From positions 1-46,341 of the forward strand of contig VBFH01000069.1 in assembly GCA_005883575.1 (NCBI GenBank): DNA of 46,341 nucleotides, given 5' to 3'. Source of the DNA: Chloroflexota bacterium (GTDB taxonomy: Bacteria > Chloroflexota > Dormibacteria > Dormibacterales > Dormibacteraceae). Positions 2,495 through 4,294 of the stretch are shown here, piece after piece. Position 1 is the stretch's first letter. Every line of letters begins with the position of its first letter. The position numbers and the translations under genes were made by a program. The notes beneath the pieces were generated by a model. It had not been told where the DNA came from. It did not search any database and was given only the letters and a program-made list of their open reading frames with translations.

Positions 2495-2761
2495 ATGGCG
2501 CCAGAATCGGTCATCGTGAACTGCGCCCGGATCGATAAACCGGACCTGGCCGCTATCGACTGCCTCGCCCGGACTCAGCTGGCAGAGCGGCGATGCGGCC
2601 GCGACGTCCGATTGAGAAGCGCGAACGCAGATCTACTGGAGCTGATCTGCCTGGCCGGACTCGACGGCGTGCTATGCGTCGAGGTGAAGCGGCAGCCCGA
2701 AGAGGGGGAACAGCTTGGCGGTGTCGAGGAAGAAGGTGAACTCCCCGATCCGTCCGTCTGA
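2495..2761 (+). CDS. STAS-domain protein overlapping the sigma factor gene
   Basis: The 88-residue product resembles the MlaB/anti-sigma-antagonist STAS fold: AAIDCLARTQLAERRCGRDV is the long helix, RLRSANADLLELICLAGL the following strand-helix, and a short strand follows at VLCVEV. The N-terminal strand with the phosphorylatable Ser/Thr of classical antagonists is shortened or missing. The acidic tail after about residue 63 (EEGEQLGGVEEEGELPD) is encoded antisense to the C terminus of the sigma factor gene. I recall similar acidic tails on small STAS proteins of Actinobacteria, which would suggest the convergent overlap is conserved. The start is uncertain and no good ribosome-binding site is seen. 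Confidence 0.6.
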   Translation: MAPESVIVNCARIDKPDLAAIDCLARTQLAERRCGRDVRLRSANADLLELICLAGLDGVLCVEVKRQPEEGEQLGGVEEEGELPDPSV

Positions 2762-3649
2762 GATGTCGAGCACCTGGAGCGCCCAGGGGTCGTAGCCCCC
2801 GTTCGGGCTTGGCTTGTACTGTCCGTACGTCGGCATGCCGTTGGCGCTGAATGTCGGAATGACGCGCGAGCCCTGGCAGCCGATGCCGGGTCCGAACCAC
2901 CACGCGAGGATGTCGTCGCGACCGCTCAGCCACATGTCGTACGGCGGCATCGACTGGCGGGCGTCTTCCTGGATCAGCGAGGTCAGGGCTTTGACGTCGT
3001 AGCGCTCGAACGCGGCGACGTAACGCTCGAGCATCGCGCGGTCCGACTCGCTCAGAGACTGCGCGCCGTTCGATGTGCTCGCGTTGCTCTTCGCTAGCGT
3101 TGCGCGTGCACGCTGCAGCGCGCTGTTGACCGAGGCAACCGACGTGCTGAGCAGCTCCGCGACCTCGGAGGCCTGCCAGTCGAGGACGTCGCGTAAGATG
3201 AGCACGGCCCGCTGGCGCGCGGGCAGGTGCTGAAGCGCCGCGACGAAGGCGAGCCGGATCGACTCGTTGGCGACCGCAACGTCGGCGGGGTCGCGCTCTG
3301 GGGCGACCAGGTGGAGCGGGATAGGTTCGAGCCATGGGATCTCCGGGATGTGCAGATTGGACTCGATTGGCTCGCACGAAGGCCCGAGGTCCATCGGCCT
3401 CGCCCGGCGCTCCTTGCCTTTGAGCATGTCGAGGCAGACGTTGGTCGCTATGCGATACAGCCACGAGCGCATCGCGGCGCGGCCCTCGAAGCGATCGCGA
3501 CTCCGCCACGCGCGCACGAACGCGTCCTGCACGGCGTCTTCCGCATCGAAGGGCGAGCCGAGCATGCGATAGCAATACGCGGTCAGCTCGGCACGGTAGG
3601 TGTCGAGCTCGCCGAACGCGTGGGCACCCGAAAGAGTCGCCTGCGCCAT
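2672..3649 (-). CDS. ECF sigma factor, SigG-type, with SnoaL-like C-terminal domain
   Basis: The 325-residue protein has a sigma-70 region 2 at about residues 15-85 (YCYRMLGSPFDAEDAVQDAFVRAW, then RSWLYRIATNVCLD). A region 4 helix-turn-helix follows at about 140-190 (LPARQRAVLILRDVL, then SEVAELLSTSVASVNSALQRAR). A SnoaL-like domain occupies about 205-315. This order and length match the SigG/SigX5 group of extracytoplasmic-function sigma factors, where the C-terminal domain can replace a separate anti-sigma factor. The gene is monocistronic or followed only by the antisense STAS gene. The regulon is unknown. The last 90 bp are also coding on the opposite strand. Confidence 0.93.
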   Translation of the reverse strand: MAQATLSGAHAFGELDTYRAELTAYCYRMLGSPFDAEDAVQDAFVRAWRSRDRFEGRAAMRSWLYRIATNVCLDMLKGKERRARPMDLGPSCEPIESNLHIPEIPWLEPIPLHLVAPERDPADVAVANESIRLAFVAALQHLPARQRAVLILRDVLDWQASEVAELLSTSVASVNSALQRARATLAKSNASTSNGAQSLSESDRAMLERYVAAFERYDVKALTSLIQEDARQSMPPYDMWLSGRDDILAWWFGPGIGCQGSRVIPTFSANGMPTYGQYKPSPNGGYDPWALQVLDISDGRIGEFTFFLDTAKLFPLFGLPLHLDA

Positions 3650-3672: not shown

Positions 3673-3888
3673 TCAGGCGGTTTCTGTCAGGTCGTCGAGG
3701 TGCTCGTCGAGCCACGCCTGGCCGCATTGGACGGCGGTCTCGATCGTCCTATGTTCGTGCGAGCAGCCCCACTTGCGCTCGCGAAACCGGTCGTTGTCCT
3801 CGTACGCCTCAGCTCGATAGATCAGCGCGGAGAGCCCACCCCGGCCCGGTGAGCCATGTGAGGCCATGACCCGGATCTTCAAGGCCAC
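3673..3888 (-). CDS. Small conserved-looking hypothetical protein
   Basis: This 71-residue protein is not recognised. It starts with a strand-like MALKIRVMASHG and ends in a helical, acidic segment (ETAVQCGQAWLDEHLDDLTETA). It has two cysteines (one in KWGCSHEHRT, one in VQCGQ) and a clustered HEH. It sits just upstream of the sigma factor on the same strand (23 bp gap) and may be cotranscribed. Composition and length look like a genuine small soluble protein, but the function is unknown. Confidence 0.55.
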   Translation of the reverse strand: MALKIRVMASHGSPGRGGLSALIYRAEAYEDNDRFRERKWGCSHEHRTIETAVQCGQAWLDEHLDDLTETA

Positions 3889-3958: not shown

Positions 3959-4294
3959 CTAGGTGATATTGCTTCCCAGCTCCGCAGGTGGATCGGGAGC
4001 GAGCAAACGAAGCGTGCCATCGGCCTCGGTCGCGGCGAGCACGAGCACGTCGGAGTTGACACCGGCCACGCGGCGCGGCGGCAGGTTGAATACGCAAACG
4101 ACCTGCCGATCCGTCAACTGCACGCGCGCGTGTAATCGGTCTTCGCGGCCGCGACGGACTGGCCGTGTGCCCAGCACTCCGAAGTCGATGGTGAGGCGAA
4201 ATGACGGCTTGCGCGCTTGGAGCAGGTCTCTCACGTCGACGATCTTGCCGACACGTATGTCGAGCTTCTGGAAGTCCTCGATGGTCGCGGTCAT
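3959..4294 (-). CDS. csaA: CsaA-like tRNA-binding-domain chaperone (double frameshift suspected)
   Basis: The 111-residue product is a stand-alone OB-fold EMAP/tRNA-binding domain of the CsaA type: MTATIEDFQKLDIRVGKIVD at the N terminus, then KPSFRLTIDFG, and QVVCVFNLPPRRVAGVNSDV plus LVLAATEADG in the C-terminal half. Between them, about residues 46-58, the protein reads PVRRGREDRLHARV where CsaA normally has an SSAQIT-type segment with a conserved tyrosine. The neighbouring frame of the same DNA reads SVAAAKTDYTRA, which fits. This points to two compensating frameshifts, real or from sequencing. The ATG shares an ATGA overlap with the stop of the TetR gene, placing it third in the operon. 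Confidence 0.85.
   Translation of the reverse strand: MTATIEDFQKLDIRVGKIVDVRDLLQARKPSFRLTIDFGVLGTRPVRRGREDRLHARVQLTDRQVVCVFNLPPRRVAGVNSDVLVLAATEADGTLRLLAPDPPAELGSNIT

Follow-up and report, generated by a model that had tools for sequence, protein, structure and literature searches.

Two insertions about 30 bases apart put a conserved block of a csaA gene out of frame

The csaA sequence described here carries two insertions, one of one base (+1) and one of two (+2), relative to the seven relatives with which we compared it, and a conserved block lies out of frame between them. As to their origin we lean slightly, with a probability of about 0.52, towards an assembly artefact, in which the sequence is locally wrong and the insertions are absent from the organism. 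A local assembly error in a GC-rich, palindromic stretch would have placed both insertions in the csaA sequence, throwing the nine conserved codons that they enclose out of frame until the second insertion brings the frame back; arising in this way during sequencing or assembly, the insertions would leave the organism making an ordinary CsaA.

The window, by which we mean the whole stretch of DNA analysed, is a contig of 46,341 bases (C9) from a draft genome (3.6 Mb, 127 contigs) estimated as 95.5% complete; a Chloroflexi metagenome-assembled genome (L033, VBGE01000111.1) is the top-scoring named record in our genome collection. The csaA gene lies 4 kb inside this contig, and the ORF upstream, judged by its sequence, is presumably TetR-like (Table 1). 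The csaA product matches PF01588 (tRNA_bind) with 44.5 bits against a cut-off of 27 over residues 13-108 of 111, and so has the stand-alone domain in a protein of about 110 residues that is a CsaA trait; its CsaA match spans nearly the full protein length.

Table 1. Features of the window discussed in the text, in order of position.
Feature	Position	Strand	Description
ECF sigma factor ORF	2672..3649	minus	TIGR02960 (SigX5) type with SnoaL-like C-terminal domain; second ORF downstream of csaA
Small ORF	3673..3888	minus	71 aa
csaA-like ORF	3959..4294	minus	111 aa; single tRNA_bind domain; frame open throughout; ATG overlaps stop of upstream, presumably TetR-like ORF (ATGA)
Interval with +2 insertion	4118..4131	minus	14 bases against 12 in relatives; (CG)4 run (4123-4130) within a palindrome
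Conserved block	4132..4158	minus	9 codons (27 nt); SVAAAKTDY one base off the csaA frame, part of VRRGREDRL in the csaA frame
Interval with +1 insertion	4159..4165	minus	four bases against one codon before the block in relatives

The window gene encodes GTRPVRRGREDRLHARVQL where the relatives carry a conserved G-x-R...Y segment. Shifted by one base from the csaA frame, the same DNA reads SVAAAKTDYTRACS and then TGA, the shifted frame running on after SVAAAKTDY for TRACS before the stop; the conserved S-x-A ... Y segment of CsaA is thus absent from the csaA frame and present one base off. The relatives compared comprise six from the same genus (L004-L009) and one from the same family (L010), and the named record above was excluded from the counts because its aligned protein is identical to that of L009. 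All seven carry G-x-R-(E/R/Q)-SVAA(A/L)(K/Q)T(D/N/G)Y in frame, followed by four residues and then L. SVAAAKTDY is the genus consensus, and the nine shifted-frame residues are the same as those of three of the seven relatives and differ from the other four at one or two residues, a closer agreement than chance would give.

Spacer lengths place the insertions on either side of the block. The spacer between the IDxG anchor and the block measures 31 nt in the window against 30 nt in every relative, and that between the block and QVVCV 26 nt against 24 nt, again in all seven, hence insertions of +1 and +2; from IDxG through QVVCV the window has 99 nt and the relatives 96 nt. The insertions lie about 30 bases apart, the frame is restored downstream of the second, and their net effect is one extra codon, with residues 45-59 altered (15 residues against 14 in the relatives). 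The (CG)4 run and the palindrome at the second junction were spotted by eye. A sequence-only reading of this DNA had proposed two compensating frameshifts in csaA with edges near 4159 and 4122; the block and its flanking lengths in the relatives support this strongly, and both edges agree with the junctions given by the length comparison. That reading had also held, correctly, that the neighbouring frame fits the family segment and then meets a TGA. Its picture of one indel and a compensating one stands as to their number, but the pair is +1 and +2 rather than +1 and -1. It allowed for either a real change or an assembly error, and it placed the segment in the putative substrate-binding face of the protein. 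The alignment with related CsaA sequences that it had proposed was run: relatives sharing the encoded residues would have counted against it, and the relatives show the other frame.

The block has not decayed. Summed over the seven relatives, its 27 nt differ from theirs at 4, 3 and 32 first, second and third codon positions of the shifted frame, and because of this pattern selection must, judging by the codon positions, have acted on the shifted frame until very recently. For comparison, outside the block the encoded frame differs from that of the closest relative (L004) at 10, 6 and 40 first, second and third positions over 81 codons. As the old-frame reading of the block is still that of the genus consensus, the insertions are either very recent or absent from the organism. 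The altered stretch includes conserved columns: positions 46, 48 and 55 are at least 90% identical across 20 sequences, and with the window excluded all 19 sequences share A46 and Y52 of the closest relative.

The encoded protein scores poorly as a CsaA. Against TIGR02222 it reaches 94.2 bits, below the NCBIfam curated cut-off of 119.65, whereas the relatives score 118.5, 119.9, 121.3, 122.1, 122.5, 123.5 and 132.2 and six of the seven pass (the exception is L006, at 118.5). With NF007494 (tRNA-binding protein), the closest NCBIfam equivalog, it scores 92.7 bits against a cut-off of 109 that all the relatives pass with 115.5-125.8. AlphaFold2 predicted the window protein (from 20 sequences) with a mean pLDDT of 82.8 and the closest relative (from 19) with 90.2. 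Compared by residue range, with the relative's numbering about three lower, the largest drop falls in the altered stretch, at residues 51-60 (61 against 92), and residues 41-50 have 74 against 86; smaller drops occur at residues 21-30 (73 against 82) and 71-80 (75 against 89). The two models have identical secondary-structure elements, and on this prediction the altered protein may still fold. The available portions of the literature searched, including those of PMC12445088 and PMC4361572, yielded no statement of the peptide-binding residues of CsaA.

We screened the assembly for further frameshifts by comparing 596 kb of it, including the window, with 1.35 Mb from two genomes of the same genus. 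Of the 3.6-Mb genome the screen covered 236,073 bp of coding-like sequence, with 293 hits and 88,538 ten-residue windows; a codon-position G+C filter kept 483 of 1663 queries, and hits below 50% identity or shorter than 60 residues were dropped. It can miss frameshifts in genes without a comparable relative, and flagged places were sorted largely by eye. The search for compensated frameshifts flagged five places, of which csaA alone was accepted; we read the other four as upstream of a gene start, as gene boundaries or as a weakly conserved alanine-rich stretch. All 11 split-frame pairs were inspected and gave one clear uncompensated frameshift, in hemC (L104, about 55-410 on the minus strand of contig C3 of genome G000), some 0.25 kb from the end of that 3.75-kb contig. 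The genome has no other hemC match, and the frameshift is probably an assembly error. At two further pairs (L101 and L158) the junctions lie upstream of OsmC-like and inositol-phosphatase-like genes. Split tblastn hits taken without the coding filter gave many pairs, most of which we attributed to gene boundaries and to shadow ORFs, antisense or out of frame. A stricter overlap filter lost csaA itself, where a 511-aa opposite-strand ORF of a relative scores higher, and the codon-position filter was adopted for that reason. Errors or broken genes thus occur in this assembly, as hemC illustrates, but are rare in the sequence compared.

The gene has a patchy distribution. Among 16 other genomes of the genus, six have a full-length match (the best at 78% DNA identity), one has a fragment and nine have none, and one of 25 family members outside the genus has a match. 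Although many of these genomes are incomplete, a match is also lacking from two members of the genus with 94% and 96% completeness. A weak 44-bp match considered as a csaA remnant in genome G001 was rejected; other genes occupy that place at L224. As for the neighbours downstream, the 71-aa ORF matches nothing in Pfam or NCBIfam at an E cut-off of 0.001, but has counterparts at the same place beside csaA in the closest relative and, in a different neighbourhood, at L224 of G001; it is probably a conserved small protein. A relative of the ECF sigma factor, at 86% identity, is encoded on a csaA-bearing contig in genome G014.

Several observations suggest that the insertions are an artefact. First, all seven relatives share the block in frame together with its flanking lengths, and the block is undecayed. 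Second, the family scores and the confidence of the model fall in the window protein, the latter most in the altered stretch. Third, the same genome has the clear frameshift in hemC, near a contig end. A (CG)4 run also lies at one junction, but such runs, counted as (CG)4 or (GC)4 and longer, number 175 in the 596 kb, so the run explains little. Frameshifts in metagenome assemblies have been traced to indel errors of long noisy reads (PMC8021871), although the platform used for this genome may differ.

The chief alternative, to which we give somewhat less than an even chance, is that both insertions exist in the organism and arose recently in its lineage, an initial frameshift being followed by one that restored the frame, with 15 altered residues as the outcome. 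Much of what counts for it counts against an artefact. The compared sequence is otherwise nearly free of frameshifts and the gene lies in the interior of a long contig, so that a pair of errors within 30 bases would call for some link between them; with errors so rare, two independent ones at that distance are unlikely, which speaks for linked errors at this one spot or for a real event in which regaining the frame was selected. Taken together the two insertions preserve the reading frame, as selection would favour in a real gene, and because csaA is patchy in the genus it may be dispensable there, leaving room for a real lesion. Against real insertions, no conspecific sequence among the 16 other genomes of the genus supports them, and with the genus consensus intact in the old frame of the block they would have to fall within a very short span of time; the recency suggested by the codon positions would speak against them. 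If the insertions are real, they have probably impaired CsaA or started its loss. That a real, recent double frameshift rewrote about 15 residues at once to give a folded CsaA with changed partner specificity seems to us improbable.

Two other explanations fare much worse. The encoded residues could be the native, selected form in this species, through ordinary divergence, as the ORF is open throughout and its model keeps the secondary-structure elements of the relative; we consider this very improbable, however, given that all seven relatives have the other reading and that third-position differences track the shifted frame. Programmed ribosomal frameshifting, out and back, would read the block in its conserved frame and has in its favour only the fact that the conserved block sits in another frame, but it needs two shifts within about 30 bases, meets a TGA in the shifted frame just past the block and has no parallel in the seven relatives, which read the block without a shift, making it the least credible explanation of all.

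The case bears mainly on the quality of annotation: an open-frame check passes the gene even though the block is misread and its product scores under the CsaA cut-off. Real insertions would show, as a natural experiment on a small scale, what share of CsaA can change in one step.

Set beside known systems, the window protein matches CsaA (TIGR02222; PDB 1gd7, 2nzh and 2q2h), a single-domain OB-fold export chaperone or tRNA-binding protein, along nearly its whole length, and the model of the closest relative aligns structurally with 1gd7 at a TM-score of 0.94. The window protein departs from the family at residues 45-59 and by one extra residue. Paired compensating indels are a known general class, both in genes and in draft assemblies, and the present pair resembles them in its short out-of-frame stretch and in a sum that is a multiple of three, with nothing distinctive about it; the csaA case is an event or error of an ordinary kind.
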